Of a stretch of 21,169 nucleotides of DNA, positions 3,751 to 11,974 are shown piece by piece (the stretch's first letter is position 1; the number at the start of each line of letters is the position of its first letter). Below the pieces are notes generated by a model. It made no database searches. It saw only the letters and a list, made by a program, of their open reading frames with translations, and was not told the DNA's origin. The DNA is from a virus. The stretch is from positions 1 to 21,169 of the IMG/VR virus record IMGVR_UViG_3300034407_000391. One strand, given 5' to 3'. Position numbers and translations under genes: made by a program.

Positions 3751-4028
3751 GCATCAAACGCGGTGGCCATACGTTTCCGGGCTTTGATAAGCCCATCCGC
3801 ACGCCGAACCATCCGAGCGGCAAGTCTCACGCTGTTGTCGTTAAAGACGGCGATAAACCGAAGCTCATTCGGTTCGGGCAACAGGGCGCTAAGACGAAAC
3901 GTCCGCGCAAGGGTGAGAGTGCTGCTGACAAGGCTAAACGTGCGTCATTCAAGGCACGCCACGCAAAAAATATCGCGAAGGGGAAGACATCTGCCGCATA
4001 TTGGGCAGACAAAGTAAAGTGGTCGTGA
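3747..4028 (+). CDS. 93-aa basic protein with RHAKNIAKGKTSAAYWA motif
   Basis: The product opens MSIKRGGHTFPGFDKPIRTP, has a central KLIRFGQQGAKTKRP segment and a C-terminal FKARHAKNIAKGKTSAAYWA motif followed by KVKWS. That C-terminal block and the LIRFGQQG block are a conserved pair in small proteins of many phages, often next to structural genes; the function is not known to me. It is the last and longest of the seven basic proteins and lies 21 nt before the scaffold gene. The His, Trp and Arg of the C-terminal block could bind nucleic acid, but this is not shown. Confidence 0.8.
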   Translation: MSIKRGGHTFPGFDKPIRTPNHPSGKSHAVVVKDGDKPKLIRFGQQGAKTKRPRKGESAADKAKRASFKARHAKNIAKGKTSAAYWADKVKWS

Positions 4029-4049
4029 AAACAACCTTACGGGTTATTC

Positions 4050-4730
4050 ATGTCTGAAGAGCAAAACCAGGAGATTACGTCTCCCGCAGCTCCAAACAAT
4101 TCTGAGCTTGATGCACTGAAGAGCAGCATCCAGGCGTTAGAGAAAAAGAACTTTGAGCTAATTGGCAAGCTCAAAAGCGCAAAAACAATTCCCGACGGCG
4201 TTGATGTTCAGGAGTTGCTTGAGTTCAAGCGGTCTGTTGAGCAGAACAAACTTGAATCAGAAGGCAAGTACACCGAGGCTCGTCAGGCTCTTGAGCAGCA
4301 GTTCCGCGAGGCTGCTGAAGCCAAGGACAAGCGGATTGCTGAGCTTGAAGCACGAGTCCGCGAGCTTGAGCTGATTGCACCTGCGAACACAGCATTGGCG
4401 GATGTTGTGCATGATCCGAGCATCGTATTCAAGGCAGACCTGTTAAAGCCGGATCAAATAGAGCGCGAAGCTGACGGCACGGTTGTTGTTGTCAATGGCT
4501 ACGAGCGCAAGCCGATTGGCGAATGGGCTAAAACCCTGCCGAGCTACATGCAAAAAGCTCCCAAGCCTGTGGGGAGTGGAGCACCGTCAGGGCGCAGCGC
4601 AGGTGGCGACATTCCGCCGGGCACAAAGAATCCTTTTGCCAAAGAGTCCTACAACCTCACAGAACAGTCCCGGCTTTATCGCACAGATCGGGATATGTAC
4701 GAAAGGTTGAAAGCTGCTGCGAGCCGTTAA
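4050..4730 (+). CDS. Capsid scaffolding protein
   Basis: Scaffolding proteins guide coat subunits into the procapsid shell and then leave or are degraded. The 226-residue product fits by design and place. Residues 18-45 and 55-110 have heptad-like Leu/Ala and Glu/Lys patterning (a coiled coil ending in ELEARVRELEL), residues 140-165 form a short mixed region (VVVVNGYERKPIGEW), residues 170-200 are Gly/Ser/Pro-rich, and the last 20 are a basic helix (LYRTDRDMYERLKAAASR) of the sort that binds coat. It stands directly before the major capsid gene. No protease motif is visible, so scaffold removal without a fused protease is likely. Sequence divergence in this class is high; the call rests on architecture and order. 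Confidence 0.82.
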   Translation: MSEEQNQEITSPAAPNNSELDALKSSIQALEKKNFELIGKLKSAKTIPDGVDVQELLEFKRSVEQNKLESEGKYTEARQALEQQFREAAEAKDKRIAELEARVRELELIAPANTALADVVHDPSIVFKADLLKPDQIEREADGTVVVVNGYERKPIGEWAKTLPSYMQKAPKPVGSGAPSGRSAGGDIPPGTKNPFAKESYNLTEQSRLYRTDRDMYERLKAAASR

Positions 4731-4736
4731 TATGAT
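4707..4736 (+). promoter_or_regulatory. Candidate sigma70-type promoter for the major capsid gene
   Basis: TTGAAA at 4707-4712 and TATGAT at 4731-4736 each match the bacterial consensus in five of six positions and are 18 bp apart, close to the optimum of 17. The site lies at the very end of the scaffold gene, with a predicted transcript start near 4743 and a leader of about 65 nt before the capsid start. Extra transcription of the most abundant virion protein would make sense. No comparison with a phage-specific late motif was possible. Confidence 0.42.
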
Positions 4737-4796
4737 CAACAAGGCAAAGCTACGCAGAGCCAATCGGGTTACGCCCACACCGTAAACATCTTTTTT

Positions 4797-4801
4797 GAGG
4801 A
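4797..4801 (+). promoter_or_regulatory. Ribosome binding site of the major capsid gene
   Basis: GAGGA at 4797-4801 lies six bases before ATG 4808, after a T-run. It fixes the capsid start and is one of the better sites in the window. Confidence 0.7.
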
Positions 4802-4807
4802 TCTGTC

Positions 4808-5830
4808 ATGGCGACTCTTCGCTCTGACATCATCATCCCCGAGGTATTTACGCCTTACGTCATTGAGCAAACCACTCAGCGTGATGCCTTCCTGGCTAGC
4901 GGTGTGGTGCAGCCAATGGCTGAGCTAAATGCTGCCGAGGATGGTGGTGACTTCGTTCAAGTGCCTTTCTATAAGGCCAACCTGTCAGGCGATTTTGAGC
5001 GTCTGACGGATAGCTCATCCCTGACCCCAGGCAAAATCACCGCAGACAAGCAGGTTGCTGCTGTTCTGCACCGTGGCCGTGCCTTTGAGTCTCGTGATCT
5101 GGCTGCCCTGGCTGCCGGTTCTGACCCGATGGCTGCCATCGGCAACAAGATTGCTGACTACATCGCCAACCAACGCCAAAAGGATCTTCTGTCCTGCCTG
5201 GCCGGTATCTTCGGCGCTGTTGGTGACACCAGCTCCGCATCTTTCGCAGCTCTGGCTGTCGATGGCGCGTCTGGTGACACCCCTACGCAACTGACTGCCC
5301 GTCAGATTGTTGAAGGTCAGTCCCTGCTGGGCGACCAAGGCGACAAGCTGGCTGCCATCGTCGTTCACCCCAAGGTGTACTACGACCTGAAAGAGCGTCG
5401 TGCTCTGGACATGATCTACGACGACGCAGGTCAGCCTGATACTGGCGCAACTCAAGGCTCACTGGCTGGCGCCTTTGGTCCTGTTGCTGTTCCCACCTTC
5501 ATGGGAATGCGCGTGATCGTGTCTGCTGATGTGCAGACCGCTGGATCCGGTGCCACCACCGAATACGCCAGCTACATGTTCACCCAAGGTGCCGTTGGCT
5601 CCGGTGAACAGCTCGGACTTCAGACCGAGACCGACCGTGACATCCTCGCCAAGAGCGATGCCATGTCGATTGATCTGCACTACGTGTATCACCCGATCGG
5701 TTCTTCGTTCTCCACGTCAACTTCCAACCCCACGCGGGCACAACTGGAAACCGTGGGCAACTGGACCAAGGTGTACGAAACCAACAACATTGGCATCGTG
5801 CGGATTACCACCACCAGCGCACTGGATTGA
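4808..5830 (+). CDS. Major capsid protein, Gp13-like (HK97-fold)
   Basis: The shell subunit of the head. The 340 residues follow the Gp13-like major capsid family: an opening DIIIPEVFTPYVIEQTTQRD, a VQVPFYKANLSGDFERLTD segment, then SSLTPGKITADKQVAAVLHR with a following GRAFESRDLAALAAGSDPM, and later a KVYYDLKERRALDMIYDDAG segment and a Gly/Ala-rich FMGMRVIVSAD strand. These correspond in order to N-arm, P-domain strands and spine helix of HK97-like folds. The N-terminus shows no obvious pro-domain, consistent with a separate scaffold just upstream. It has a good ribosome site and probably its own promoter. The next gene follows after 14 nt with a very strong ribosome site, suggesting that both products are abundant. 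Confidence 0.9.
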   Translation: MATLRSDIIIPEVFTPYVIEQTTQRDAFLASGVVQPMAELNAAEDGGDFVQVPFYKANLSGDFERLTDSSSLTPGKITADKQVAAVLHRGRAFESRDLAALAAGSDPMAAIGNKIADYIANQRQKDLLSCLAGIFGAVGDTSSASFAALAVDGASGDTPTQLTARQIVEGQSLLGDQGDKLAAIVVHPKVYYDLKERRALDMIYDDAGQPDTGATQGSLAGAFGPVAVPTFMGMRVIVSADVQTAGSGATTEYASYMFTQGAVGSGEQLGLQTETDRDILAKSDAMSIDLHYVYHPIGSSFSTSTSNPTRAQLETVGNWTKVYETNNIGIVRITTTSALD

Positions 5831-7456: not shown

Positions 7457-7833
7457 TGGCTAAGCGTCAGATACAGATTCTTCAGATCGGCGAGTATTGC
7501 GAAGGGAAGGTGCAAGAGCTTGTCAAGGAATCAGGCGTGATGCTGCGGAACCGGCTTGTTGAGTTGAGCCCTGTGGGTGAAGTCAACGGCGGAACGTTTA
7601 AGTCAAATTGGCAACCGCCTGTCTATGTAGACAAGGGCCTAACCGCCAGGATCATCAACAACACTCAGAATTACGGCGAGGCCATCACGTTTGGCGAGAG
7701 CCTGCCGCCGTCTTGGCAGGGCAGGTTCCGTTCACGGTATGGCTTGCCTAAAGGCTGGCCCACCTTGCTTGCCGGAAAAGACGTGAGAAACGCGATTCCT
7801 AGCATGTGGAACAGGATTGCTAGAAAGCCATGA
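7456..7833 (+). CDS. Tail-completion protein, HK97 gp10-like
   Basis: The 125-residue product shows the gp10-like layout: an N-terminal helix ending in VMLRNRLVELSPVGEVNGGT, a FKSNWQPPV strand, RIINNTQNYGEAITFGES, and a basic C-terminus. The SPV-x-x-G-x-F/FKxxW plus INNTxxYGxxIxFG pattern is the family signature. Proteins of this type sit between neck and tail terminator and are needed to finish the head-to-tail joint. The C-terminal region (GRFRSRYGLPKGWPTLLAGK) is Arg/Trp-rich and may contact DNA or the tube. The gene begins at a TAATG overlap and ends in a 4-nt ATGA overlap. Confidence 0.78.
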   Translation: MAKRQIQILQIGEYCEGKVQELVKESGVMLRNRLVELSPVGEVNGGTFKSNWQPPVYVDKGLTARIINNTQNYGEAITFGESLPPSWQGRFRSRYGLPKGWPTLLAGKDVRNAIPSMWNRIARKP

Positions 7834-8249
7834 GCAGCACATACAACGACATCAGAACTGCCATTGAGGCGCGTATCGCCACAGAGATGGCAGGCTCGCC
7901 GTCATATCAGGTGAGCTATGAGAACGTGCCGTTTACGCCCCCCAATAATTCCACTTGGATTAAGGTTCAAATCCGCTTCGGCGCAAACAATTACGGGACA
8001 TTGCTTGGCCCCACTACTGGTAGCAACATCCAGTCAGGCATTGTCGTTATCGGCATTTTCAGCCCTATCGGTGTTGGCACTGGAGATAACTTCACGTTGG
8101 CCGAACGGCTGAAAGATCTGTTTGACCGAAAAACCGTAAGCCAGATTATTTTTGACGCAGCGGATGGCCCGGCAATCATTGAGGCTGCTGCACCTGAATC
8201 CTTTTTTCAGACAGAGCTAGCCATAACATTCAATGCCTTCGTACAATGA
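7830..8249 (+). CDS. Tail terminator protein
   Basis: Tail terminators form a ring that caps the growing tube and docks on the neck. The 139-residue product has the gpU/DUF4128-like order: helix 1 (STYNDIRTAIEARIATEM), a VSYENVPFTPPNNSTWIKVQ strand-loop-strand, a NIQSGIVVIGIFSPIGVGTG strand and an AERLKDLFDRKT helix, then a FFQTELAITFNAFVQ closing strand. The VPFxPPxxxTWxKV pattern is characteristic. It starts within a 4-nt overlap with the gp10-like gene and is followed 26 nt later by the tube gene. Confidence 0.8.
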   Translation: MSSTYNDIRTAIEARIATEMAGSPSYQVSYENVPFTPPNNSTWIKVQIRFGANNYGTLLGPTTGSNIQSGIVVIGIFSPIGVGTGDNFTLAERLKDLFDRKTVSQIIFDAADGPAIIEAAAPESFFQTELAITFNAFVQ

Positions 8250-8275: not shown

Positions 8276-9019
8276 ATGGCAACCACTCTGTCCGGTACGT
8301 CCGGCGCCCTTTATTACAAGCCTGCGGGCACTGACAGCACGTTCACTGCATCGAACGTGACCAATGCTGACAATGAAATCAATGTCGGCACATTCCTCAA
8401 CTTCAAAGTCAACGACAAGGTTGTCTTTGGTGCTGGCACTGGCGGTACCCTGCCTGCCGGTCTCACTGCGGGCACTGATGTATTCATCTTGACCTACACC
8501 GCTTCAACCGGTGTAGCCACGTTCTCGGCGACTGCAGGCGGCTCTGAGCTTGCTTTGACTGACGATGGCACTGATGGCACCACGCCATTCACCATTAAAT
8601 ACAGCGAGTTCCAAGCGGTTGGAGCTGTTCGTGAGTGGGCTTTTGAGATCACTCGCGATGAAATTGACGTGACGACGATCGGCCAAACCCTTGGTCAAAA
8701 CGCACCGTTTAAGACCTACATCACCGGCTTTGCTGATGGTGAAGGTTCCGCCACCATCTACACCACTGACGACGACACCACCATTGCATCCCGCTTGGTG
8801 GAAGACGTGATTCAGCGGATTCAAACAGGTGTGCAGTTCAAGCTGTATATCGATCGCGTGGTCTCTTCTGGTTCTGTAGATGACACCGCAAGCCGTTCCA
8901 TCACCATGGAAGCCGTGTTGACTTCTGCCAGCTATTCCGTCAACCCGGACGACGCTCAGCAAATTGAGGTTGCATTCCGTCCGTCTGCTGTTCCTACCTT
9001 CGACCTCAGCAAGACCTGA
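8276..9019 (+). CDS. Major tail tube protein with an inserted beta domain
   Basis: The tube protein stacks into hexameric rings around the tape measure. The C-terminal part (residues 109-247) is typical: EFQAVGAVREWAFEITRDEI, DVTTIGQTLGQNAPFKTYIT, a GEGSATIYTTDD strand and a LTSASYSVNPDDAQQIEVAF end. The first 18 residues supply the usual N-terminal strand. Residues of about 19-108 look inserted, with FLNFKVNDKVVF, TLPAGLTAGTDVFIL and STGVATFSATAGGSELALTD, a Gly/Thr-rich beta module also met in phage fibres. With it the protein is 247 aa rather than the usual 150-200. No Shine-Dalgarno is visible before ATG 8276. A strong terminator follows. Confidence 0.83.
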   Translation: MATTLSGTSGALYYKPAGTDSTFTASNVTNADNEINVGTFLNFKVNDKVVFGAGTGGTLPAGLTAGTDVFILTYTASTGVATFSATAGGSELALTDDGTDGTTPFTIKYSEFQAVGAVREWAFEITRDEIDVTTIGQTLGQNAPFKTYITGFADGEGSATIYTTDDDTTIASRLVEDVIQRIQTGVQFKLYIDRVVSSGSVDDTASRSITMEAVLTSASYSVNPDDAQQIEVAFRPSAVPTFDLSKT

Positions 9020-9041
9020 TTGCTTGTTGTTGGTTTGTTTG

Positions 9042-9067
9042 CCCCCGGCTTGCGCTGGGGGTTTTTT
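9042..9067 (+). terminator. Rho-independent terminator after the tail tube gene
   Basis: CCCCCGGC (9042-9049) pairs with GCTGGGGG (9054-9061) across a TTGC loop, giving an eight-pair stem with one G-T, followed by six T. It lies 23 nt after the tube stop and before the chaperone gene, so it can separate high-level head/tube transcription from the tail-tip genes. Confidence 0.88.
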
Positions 9068-9102
9068 CATGAGTAGTATCTGTTTACTGTTTTCAGGTTT
9101 TT

Positions 9103-9456
9103 ATGTCTTCCAGTGCAAGCGGACGCGCACTTGATCGCCTCAAGAAAGCCGCAAATCTGACGCCAGTGAAGCGCATTGTTGTCCTAAGCAATGGAGATGA
9201 GTTTGAATTTTGGTCAACGCCATTAACGATGGCAGAGCGTGAGCGTGCGCAAAAGCAAGCCAATTCAGATGATGCCAATCAGTATGCCCTGCAACTTCTC
9301 GTCAACAAAGCGACTGATGAGAATGGTCAGCGCATGTTCAAGGCTGGCGAACTTGCTGAACTTAAAAACGATGTCCGAGACGAAGACTTGCAAGGTTTAA
9401 TGGTTGCTTTGGTTACTGGTGAGGGCAACGTCACTGAGGAAGAGGCAAAAAACTAA
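9103..9456 (+). CDS. Tail assembly chaperone, gpG-like
   Basis: Tail assembly chaperones hold the tape measure and recruit tube subunits; they are absent from the finished virion. The 117-residue product starts after an AGG six bases upstream. It opens with MSSSASGRALDRLKKAANLT, then has a beta segment (VKRIVVLSNGDEFEFWSTPL) and helices (TMAERERAQKQANSDDANQY onward), ending with a Glu-rich tail. Position between tube and tape-measure genes is diagnostic, as is the slippery heptamer at 9447-9453 just before its stop, which gives a longer gpGT-like product. The length is close to that of other gpG-type proteins. Weak match to any named family. Confidence 0.82.
   Translation: MSSSASGRALDRLKKAANLTPVKRIVVLSNGDEFEFWSTPLTMAERERAQKQANSDDANQYALQLLVNKATDENGQRMFKAGELAELKNDVRDEDLQGLMVALVTGEGNVTEEEAKN
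9447..9453 (+). promoter_or_regulatory. Programmed -1 ribosomal frameshift site (A AAA AAC)
   Basis: The last sense codons are GCA AAA AAC followed by TAA, which is a perfect X-XXY-YYZ heptamer in the correct frame. Slipping back by one base avoids the stop and continues through an open frame to TAG 9636-9638. A GAGGA at 9436-9440, six bases upstream, could act as the internal Shine-Dalgarno-like stimulator described for dnaX. I see no clear stimulatory hairpin downstream. Confidence 0.85.
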
Positions 9457-9638
9457 GCAAGCTCTTCAAGGATGACTGGTCTTTAAGGGTTCAGATGCGT
9501 GTGGCCCGTGAACTGGGTTACACGCTCTCTGAGCTTTCAAGCAAGATGTCTCGTGAAGAGCTGCAGCTTTGGTGCCTGCTGTTTGAGGTGGAAGCTGAGG
9601 AGCAGCAGGAGATGCGCCGGAAAGCTAAGCGACGGTAG
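9453..9638 (+). CDS. gpT-like extension of the tail assembly chaperone (read by -1 frameshift)
   Basis: After slippage the ribosome reads CTA at 9453 onward, adding 61 residues and producing a fusion of about 178 residues. The extension begins LSKLFKDDW, continues LRVQMRVARELGYTLSEL, and then shows SSKMSREELQLWCLLFEVEA followed by a Glu/Gln and Lys/Arg-rich end. The LGxxxxEL-x-MSxxELxxWxxxFE pattern is typical of gpT-type domains and of small helical tail-chaperone extensions. Independent starting from ATG 9495 is possible but lacks a good ribosome site. The fusion is thought to bind both tape measure and tube protein. Known mainly from lambda gpG/gpGT. Confidence 0.83.
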   Translation, partial: LSKLFKDDWSLRVQMRVARELGYTLSELSSKMSREELQLWCLLFEVEAEEQQEMRRKAKRR

Positions 9639-9664
9639 ACTTAGCTGAAGTCGGCGAAAATCTT

Positions 9665-11974
9665 GTGGCGGGTCAGGTTGTCGTTGAACTTACCGCGCAG
9701 GACAAGGTTTCAGGAGTCCTGGATAGGATCAGCGGTTCAAGTAAAAAGCTGAATCAAAGCATTAAAGGCGCGACAGACAAAGCAGGTAGAGGCTTTAATA
9801 ATTTGAGGGGTCAAGCCACAAAGCTGCAAAGTGTTCTTGTTTCGCTTGGGGCAGCTGCTGCTGTCAAAGGCTTCGCGCAGGCTGGTATTGAAGCTGATCG
9901 CACTGCAAAGCGGCTCAAGTTTTTAGGGGATCAATTTGGCGAAACCGGTAGGCTGCAAGAGATAGCGAACAAGAGCGCCGAAAAGTTTGCGATCGGTCAG
10001 ACGGAGGCAGAAAAAGCTGTGTCTGATCTCTATGGACGCCTTCGACCTATGGAGATCGGTTTGGATGATGTGGCGACCGTGTTTGAAGGTGTAAACGTAG
10101 CGGCAAAGCAGATGTCTTTGTCTACTGCGGACACTGAGGGCGTAATGCTCCAGTTAAGCCAGGCGCTTGGCTCTGGAAAGCTGCAGGGTGATGAATTTAG
10201 AAGCGTGATGGAGCGATTGCCGAAGATCGGTCAAGCGGTCGCAAAGTCGATGGGCGTGCAAGTAAGTGAGCTGAAATCGCTAAGTTCTGCTGGCGCAATA
10301 ACGACTCAGGAGATTATTAAAGCCCTGCGAAACGTCAGGAAAGAAGGTTTCCCCCCGCCAGACTCCGTTATGGCCTTCAATAAGGCAATAAGTGATCTTT
10401 CTACCGCGATCGGTCAAAGGCTGACGCCAGTTATAGGTCCAGTCCTTGATGTCATTACTGGTTTAGTCAATAAGTTCTTGAGCTTGCCTGAGCCTGTTCA
10501 GGCAGCCGCTATTGCATTCGCAGGCATTGGCACTGCTTTTGCTGTTATTGCACCGTTGCTGCCCGTAATTGTTGCTGGCGTTGCGGCGATTGTCACAACA
10601 CTGACCGGACCAGTAGGAATTATCGCTGCAATCGGTGGTGCAGCTGCTGCTTTCTTGACAATGAAGGGCAAAGCAGAGGAGGCAAAAGAACCTGTGGCTC
10701 AAGTCAGTAAGGAGACTGACAAGCTTAAGACTGCAACTGAAGCGGCCGCTCGCGCAAAACAAGACTTCATCGATAGAAGCAAATCAGCCGTCAAAAGCAT
10801 TGAAGCGGAACAACAACAAATTAAAGCTGCGGAGCAGGCGTTTGACAATGCTTTAAAGATCACTGATGCTCGATTGCAAGCGGAAGCGCAAATCAACGAT
10901 TTGCAAATCAAAGGGTTGGACATTGCGTATGAAAACGCAAGTACAGCGGAGAAACGCTTGAGTATTGCTAGGCAAATATTCCAACAAGAAATTGACGGCG
11001 CGCAAATTGCTTATGAGCAAACCTTAAACAGCATTAAGGCTGAACAGACACGTCTCGAGCTCCGCAGACAGGCGGCAGAGCTTGAAGCAAGGATGATTAA
11101 AGCTAAGGGTGAATTGGCCGCAGCAGAAGCAGACAGCGCGGAAAAAGCGGCGCTGATTATGGAAAAAACAAAAGTAGCCGTAGAGATTCAGCGTCAAAAC
11201 GTTCAGCTAATAGATGGGCAAATTAGGGCGCAGGCACAAATCGCTGAACAGCAAAAGCGAGGTGCCGATGCTCAATTTAAGGCGGCAGTACAGACAGCAG
11301 AGCAAAATCTAAAGCAGAAGCTTGTTAGCGATGAAATTGGCATGAGCGAAAAGAATGCAAATGCTTTGGCCGGGCGTATGGGGGATTCTGTGAGAAACTC
11401 CAATTCACTTGCTAGCGTCACCGGCCAAGTCTCTAGTAATGCTTCATCCGCAGCAGGCAATTTCATACGAGTTGCCACTGAGGCTGACAAGGCTGCTAAT
11501 GCTATTGCCCGTGCCGCTGCGGCACAAAGATCTTTGAACGCTGCAAGAGCGGCAAGAGCGCAGCAAACCACAACTACAACCACAGAGACTGTTCAGCAGG
11601 CCGCAGGCGGTTACAACCTTGGATCGTTCAAAGCCTTTGCCCGTGGCGGCGTCGTCAAAGGGCCAACCCTTGGCCTTATCGGTGAGGGCGGCGAGCCTGA
11701 ATACATCATTCCGCAGAGTAAAGCGGCTGGCTTTGCCGCTAACTTCCTTTCGGGCAAGCGCGGCGCAGGTGCCATTCCAGGCTTTGCAGAAGGCGGCATG
11801 GCCGTTCCATCAACGGCAAGCGTGAGCATTCAAACAGGGCCAGTGACCCAAATGGATGGGCAGAACTTTGTCACGACTGCAGATCTAGGTGCTGCTGTTG
11901 AGGCGGGTGTTCTTCAAACATTAGATATACTTCGCCGTGATCAAATGGTTCGCTCAGGGGTAGGGGTCAGCTGA
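9665..11974 (+). CDS. Tail tape measure protein
   Basis: The tape measure fixes tail length and passes through the tube during DNA ejection. The 769-residue product starts with GTG 9665, the only reasonable start in the frame after the upstream TAA at 9626, with a weak ribosome site. Residues of about 75-225 match the tape-measure N-terminal domain (ADRTAKRLKFLGDQF, EAEKAVSDLYGRLRPMEIGL, SQALGSGKLQGDEFRSVMER, GAITTQEIIKAL). Residues 278-332 are hydrophobic, with two or three possible membrane segments. Residues 340-570 are Ala/Glu/Gln/Lys coiled coil. Residues of about 640-740 are Gly-rich and include GSFKAFARGGVVKGPTLGLI and GEGGEPEYIIPQSKA. At roughly 0.15 nm per residue the tail would be about 115 nm, a rule of thumb. 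Confidence 0.93.
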   Translation: MAGQVVVELTAQDKVSGVLDRISGSSKKLNQSIKGATDKAGRGFNNLRGQATKLQSVLVSLGAAAAVKGFAQAGIEADRTAKRLKFLGDQFGETGRLQEIANKSAEKFAIGQTEAEKAVSDLYGRLRPMEIGLDDVATVFEGVNVAAKQMSLSTADTEGVMLQLSQALGSGKLQGDEFRSVMERLPKIGQAVAKSMGVQVSELKSLSSAGAITTQEIIKALRNVRKEGFPPPDSVMAFNKAISDLSTAIGQRLTPVIGPVLDVITGLVNKFLSLPEPVQAAAIAFAGIGTAFAVIAPLLPVIVAGVAAIVTTLTGPVGIIAAIGGAAAAFLTMKGKAEEAKEPVAQVSKETDKLKTATEAAARAKQDFIDRSKSAVKSIEAEQQQIKAAEQAFDNALKITDARLQAEAQINDLQIKGLDIAYENASTAEKRLSIARQIFQQEIDGAQIAYEQTLNSIKAEQTRLELRRQAAELEARMIKAKGELAAAEADSAEKAALIMEKTKVAVEIQRQNVQLIDGQIRAQAQIAEQQKRGADAQFKAAVQTAEQNLKQKLVSDEIGMSEKNANALAGRMGDSVRNSNSLASVTGQVSSNASSAAGNFIRVATEADKAANAIARAAAAQRSLNAARAARAQQTTTTTTETVQQAAGGYNLGSFKAFARGGVVKGPTLGLIGEGGEPEYIIPQSKAAGFAANFLSGKRGAGAIPGFAEGGMAVPSTASVSIQTGPVTQMDGQNFVTTADLGAAVEAGVLQTLDILRRDQMVRSGVGVS

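Follow-up and report, generated by a model that had tools for sequence, protein, structure and literature searches.

The tail tube gene and its neighbours

The window (the whole stretch of viral DNA analysed, 21,169 nucleotides) carries a series of tail genes on the plus strand, among them a gene for a tail tube protein into which a small beta domain appears to have been inserted. The features considered here are listed below, with the evidence for each in parentheses.

7830–8249, + strand: tail terminator protein (PF13554, E 5.3e-12; phrog_179, E 6.2e-22)
8276–9019, + strand: tail tube (major tail) protein, 247 aa (gene order, family matches, fold match)
8276–8329, + strand: residues 1–18 of the tube protein, N-terminus and first tube strand, the strand being 10–15 (model; alignment to module-less tubes)
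8330–8599, + strand: residues 19–108, inserted FCCH-like beta domain, its last strand reaching 109 (evidence given below)
8600–9016, + strand: residues 109–247, remaining tube fold, with second strand 113–125, a loop, helix 168–180 and further strands (model, fold search, alignment)
9103–9456, + strand: tail assembly chaperone, short form (phrog_20784, E 1.7e-36; phrog_344, E 2.7e-4)
9665–11974, + strand: tape measure protein, 769 aa (open reading frame; position; partial match to the tape-measure region of S-2L and KBS-S-2A)

The order of these genes, running from terminator through tube and chaperone to the tape measure protein, which sets tail length, places the product of 8276–9019 where the tail tube of a siphophage is usually found, and the order around the tube gene is the same in KBS-S-2A, MED4-184 and S-2L. 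The PHROG family phrog_1407, annotated as major tail protein, was matched by 30 of the 35 members of the tube family (best E 1.7e-8) and phrog_158 by 4 of them. The window's own tube sequence matched neither at E<=0.5, its absence from the phrog_1407 matches being a matter of too much divergence, and scans of the single window protein and of the insert against Pfam and PHROG gave weak, scattered matches only. A sequence search of the PDB with the core profile returned LAGLIDADG look-alikes and other chance matches and no tail protein. We rejected a LAGLIDADG identity for the tube, the profile and PDB matches depending on the look-alike GFADGEGS; this resemblance to the endonuclease motif (GFADGEGS and its flanks) lies at positions 8728–8775. 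The assignment of the product of 8276–9019 as a siphophage tail tube subunit is strongly supported.

A beta domain between the first and second tube strands

The earlier note had claimed that a beta domain splits the tube fold behind its first strand, and placed this domain at residues 19–108 (8330–8599); LPAGLTAGT and STGVATFSATAGGS are both present there, and the insertion is borne out by alignment to tubes without the module, by the model of the full-length protein and by the independent fold of the insert. The tubes of three Prochlorococcus/Synechococcus phages, MED4-184 and MED4-117 (139 aa) and S-H1 (138 aa), lead from the first strand straight into the ..W.. strand. They align with the window protein before residue ~18 and after ~109, with nothing aligned between (local identity ~26%, tblastn E 2e-3). 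Because these module-less tubes are so distant (25–26% identity), gain and loss of the insert are indistinguishable.

The AlphaFold2 model of the full-length protein had a mean pLDDT of 67.7, with residues 31–90 at ~77–91 and the core weaker, at 31–65 in places and below 50 over residues 128–154. When the model was compared with solved structures, the top rows were tail tubes and Hcp, at Z ~8–10 over ~95–124 residues (for example 8qhs, Z 9.9 over 122 residues, and R4C 8gtb, Z 8.8 over 111 residues with 24% identity). The tail tube matches span residues 7..247, yet mostly ~110–124 residues are aligned. Modelled alone, the insert gave a pLDDT of 89.6 and a pTM of 0.80.

The weakness of the full-length model in its core could be taken to favour a reading without any insertion, in which the tube fold is unusual and residues 19–108 form some of its core strands. 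The structure prediction of the 247-residue protein did not yield a tube fold requiring these residues as core, and such a reading is opposed by the homologues that lack the module, by the limited number of residues that the tube matches align across their span, by the predicted independent folding of the insert and by its exchange as a unit, described below. We consider it very improbable and largely refuted. What the models predict, an independently folding small beta domain between tube strands 1 and 2, is strongly supported.

Fold and sequence character of the insert

The fold of the insert was searched against PDB chains re-aligned by VIA-align, for which a Z of 8 serves as the line of caution. 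The best match was to ubiquitin E1, at a domain that we take to be the one named FCCH (Uba1 ~181–260), with a Z of 7.5 over 76 residues at 2.6 Å. Further matches were to residues 256–340 of the phi92 endosialidase (Z 7.1), to residues 104–179 of the Mystique tail tube (Z 6.7), and to residues 16–97 of the T1 (9l0f_G) and FCWL1 (9jlf) tail tubes (Z 6.4; for T1 over 79 residues at 2.8 Å). With all of these values (6.4–7.5) below 8, each match alone is weak and a common arrangement is possible. The fold match nevertheless gains meaning because three tail tubes are listed, two of which carry the domain at the window's insertion point. Identity to the E1 FCCH domain is 8–10% in the best rows, and the likeness does not imply a functional link.

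In Pfam searches with 15 inserts, there was no match to E1_FCCH at E<=1 and no convincing match to a glycan-binding family, and a search for Ig-like families (Big_1, Big_2, FN3) gave just Big_9, in 1 of the 15 (E 0.015). Ig-like sequence families were likewise missing from 35 full-length tube proteins, nor is an Ig domain conspicuous among the VIA-align matches listed for the insert, though such a fold is conceivable. Foldseek found nothing in the PDB at E<=1e-3, and the insert profile had no credible match among PDB sequences; the insert was not found as a known sequence family. By tblastn with the insert alone, KBS-S-2A was the sole match in 50,697 phage records. Among the predicted viral proteins of BFVD, 22 match the insert fold at E<=1e-3; most are uncharacterised, but they include the S-TIM5 cyanophage tail fibre as well as baseplate wedge proteins, in keeping with the fibre-like character that had been ascribed to the module from its letters. 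The conserved columns of the insert hold G, T, P, D and a few aromatics, and as judged from the alignment they look like a fold core rather than a common binding site.

Comparison with other decorated tail tubes

Decorated siphophage tubes are known already, and the window provides a further example with an insertion point of the T1 type. The sandwich of T1 gp41 is described as residues 2–15, 95–113 and 135–218, with an extra domain at 16–94 that its authors call Ig-like (PMC11945409). This domain of ~80 residues follows the first tube strand, like residues 19–108 of the window protein, and lies between the same strands, so that a location which the earlier note did not recognise has in fact been known since 2025. 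In a search with gp41, 1,096 records matched it. There is no clear sequence similarity between the two inserts. None was found between the window insert and the single T1 sequence, and hhalign of window-type against T1 insert profiles gave a score of 20.5 (maximum 14.6 in 50 column shuffles) at a probability of 10%, the matching 25 columns being in register; the full-length profiles of window-type and T1 tubes matched weakly over the same 23 columns. The comparison suggests placing the T1-type insert, although it has been called Ig-like, in an FCCH-like class that predicted phage fibres share.

Surface domains, described as Ig-like or beta-sandwich, have also been reported on the tubes of YSD1/Chi (domain 2), JBD30, lambda, T5 and Douge (PMC8718954, PMC7385642, PMC13033339, PMC11445458). 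Their attachment differs from that of the window insert: YSD1 domain 2 is placed between alpha1 and beta4 (PMC8718954), the JBD30 decoration domain (residues 88–175) has another attachment point, and the Ig domains of lambda, T5 and Douge are C-terminal.

Relatives among aquatic phages

The tube of cyanophage KBS-S-2A (Synechococcus WH7803) has the architecture of the window protein and is 55% identical to it over 252 columns, although its insert has a longer loop. Within the phage collection searched, KBS-S-2A is the nearest isolate with such an insert. The major tail protein of S-2L also shares this architecture (~32% identical, with a diverged insert), and the S-2L head genes are unrelated or very distant to those of the window. 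The head-to-neck genes of MED4-184 and S-H1 are mostly 41–79% identical to the window's, with one neck gene at 25–28%, but the tubes of these phages and of MED4-117 (138–139 aa, without insert) are ~25% identical in the core, and in MED4-184 and S-H1 the chaperone and tape measure are replaced as well as the tube. With a tube core at ~25% against head genes at mostly 41–79%, it follows that the whole tail module was replaced.

Tube, chaperone and tape measure thus behave as a replaceable block when positions 8276–11974 of the window are compared with the corresponding loci (L294, L002 and L292). S-H1 and MED4-184 share the head genes of the window and not the block, whereas S-2L shares the block and hardly any of the head genes.

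Retention of the insert and selection upon it

A scan with the tube core only, which cannot favour any insert type, still found an insert. Of 83 core-bearing open reading frames examined, those of L389, L202 and L179 among them, the full insert is present in 81 and the other two are cut by contig ends; no close relative without insert was seen in this set. All 302 open reading frames with a match to the insert also carry the tube core, within loci that were fetched with tube queries, plus the window.

The median dN/dS was 0.14 for the insert and 0.067 for the core (449 pairs). The window was part of just three pairs that passed the filter, and for these the values were similar, 0.089 for the insert and 0.101 for the core. 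Positive selection was not seen, dN/dS exceeding 1 in none of the 449 pairs. At the level of the coding sequences these data show the insert to be under purifying selection.

Exchange of the insert between tube cores

Core and insert identities were compared among 175 distinct full-length relatives and the window, after fragments and open reading frames below 240 aa had been dropped. The tubes of L202 and L179 have a core identity of 0.90 to many relatives with an insert identity of 0.3, while L033 and L064 are 0.74 identical in the core and 0.97 in the insert. Pairwise DNA identity shifts, downward or upward, at the edges of the insert or close to them. Between L202 and the window, for example, it is 0.87 over residues 1–20, ~0.4–0.5 over 21–110, and 0.77–0.93 from 111 onward.

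We scanned for recombination with 60,000 randomly drawn triples, which are not independent of one another. The exact test was applied to 14,910, the other 45,090 having too few informative sites or failing the size filter, and 316 of those tested were significant; in a smaller, earlier scan it was 21 of 2,500 exact tests. The internal breakpoints are concentrated at the two edges of the insert, with 297 of 578 in residue bins 10–29 and 100–119, which hold ~17% of the informative sites; without the triples that contain L202 or L179, 155 of 398 breakpoints lie in these bins. The window itself can be read as a mosaic with a core like L006 and residues 31–116 like L005 (p 2.7e-14 for a triple picked post hoc). 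The signal was weaker in three further triples that were also picked post hoc (p 0.07, 6e-5 and 0.01), and ranking all pairs as best candidate parents of the window was uninformative (p 0.14–1).

Separate DNA trees of core and insert were built from 74 representatives of 188 distinct proteins. A second type of insert, class B, which was defined after the sequences had been seen, is found in 7 of the 74. On the core tree its distribution requires six changes, each of which is forced by starred branches, and on the insert tree it requires one; an AU test rejected a single class B clade on the core tree (p-AU 2e-83). Taken together, these sequence comparisons show that whole inserts have been exchanged among tube cores. 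In open-licence literature, covered as titles and the starts of abstracts, we found no description of an FCCH-like tail-tube insert or of its exchange. It is the unit exchange that is the new part of the result and worth following; the architecture itself is not new.

Possible roles of the insert

Tail tubes are usually taken for passive conduits, and there is debate about what their surface domains are for. The repetition of the module along the tail that the earlier note foresaw follows from the tube fold. Tail tubes are reported to have six subunits per ring (PMC8718954), and by analogy with the tube family six copies of the insert per ring would project from the outer tube surface. A tape measure of 769 aa would by arithmetic give a tail of ~115 nm with ~28 rings, and hence ~170 inserts per virion. 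The FCCH-like insert, as a peripheral decoration, may then form weak, multivalent contacts with the envelope of the host as the phage adsorbs; recombination between the conserved flanking strands would shuffle versions of it among phages with tube assembly undisturbed. We regard the chances of this proposal as evenly balanced.

Swapping of the insert between differing tubes hints at a target that changes, for instance the surface of the host cell. Precedents for such a target exist: a tube-borne domain of mycobacteriophage Douge is reported to bind host glycans (PMC13033339), and a tube extension of a lactococcal 936 phage to bind the host (PMC6669499), whereas for the tube domains of T5 and YSD1 host binding is described as a proposal (PMC8718954). 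The bench precedents involve Ig-like or CBM domains, which do not have the fold of the window insert. Adhesion is further opposed by the want of a convincing glycan-binding family among the Pfam matches, by conservation like that of a fold core and by a dN/dS below 1.

The main rival to adhesion is a ring-stabilising latch, in which the insert would pack on the neighbouring subunit and brace the sheathless tube as YSD1 domain 2 does. That domain is reported to wrap around neighbouring subunits, with 950 square angstroms buried by each (PMC7385642), but it is attached at a different point. The beta1-beta2 loop used by the window insert is, in lambda, a long loop that contacts the neighbour's Ig domain, the C-terminal domain of gpV (PMC8718954), and the retention of the insert in all uncut close relatives would also suit a latch. 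A tightly co-adapted interface does not, however, predict exchange of whole inserts between cores that are ~70–90% identical, nor does a bracing role sit well with the occurrence of module-less tubes in related phages. We think a latch, which could be both conserved and swappable, somewhat unlikely. Less probable still is a tolerated decoration of little function, the loop accepting small surface domains that phages gain and swap. The dN/dS of the insert, about twice that of the core, would fit this, as would the reported viability of SPP1 without its tube-borne FN3 domain (PMC8718954); a value of 0.14 is nonetheless strongly purifying, and an insert-less close relative did not occur among the 83 open reading frames. 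Because the insert is always kept, is under purifying selection and is swapped whole, outward peripheral contact fits better than a tight brace.

A broader version of the adhesion proposal can be put forward tentatively, as a minority possibility. This group of aquatic siphophages may hold a pool of two or more classes of interchangeable tail-surface domains, from which recombination at the flanking strands would re-dress the whole tail (~170 copies) and retune adsorption to a new host envelope with the tube untouched. A surface domain that is always kept and repeatedly exchanged supplies natural variants, in which similar cores carry different domains, and adhesion and stabilisation can therefore be tested against each other directly.

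Further observations on the tail modules

One class B tube, at locus L389 (5001–5723), is encoded on a contig of 12 kb that had been assigned to a gammaproteobacterial MAG. It was the one locus found in a scan of genome contigs and is probably a phage contig within the MAG bin, the scan giving no evidence of host. S-H1 (L294) has tandem open reading frames at 4001–4417 and 4420–4842, of 138 and 140 aa, both of which resemble short tail tubes. The linear record of MED4-117 has tube and chaperone annotated at both ends (L003, 2935–3736; L293, 3592–4306), and these copies reflect either assembly end redundancy or a true duplication.

In the window, a slippery heptamer, A AAA AAC, lies at 9447–9453, with the chaperone stop directly after it in the slippery frame. 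Such a heptamer alone is no rarer than chance within the window. A -1 slip at this point would add 61 residues, up to a stop at 9636–9638, and the arrangement looks, from its sequence, like the usual programmed frameshift of G/GT chaperones. The chaperone of KBS-S-2A has a similar extension after an identical heptamer.
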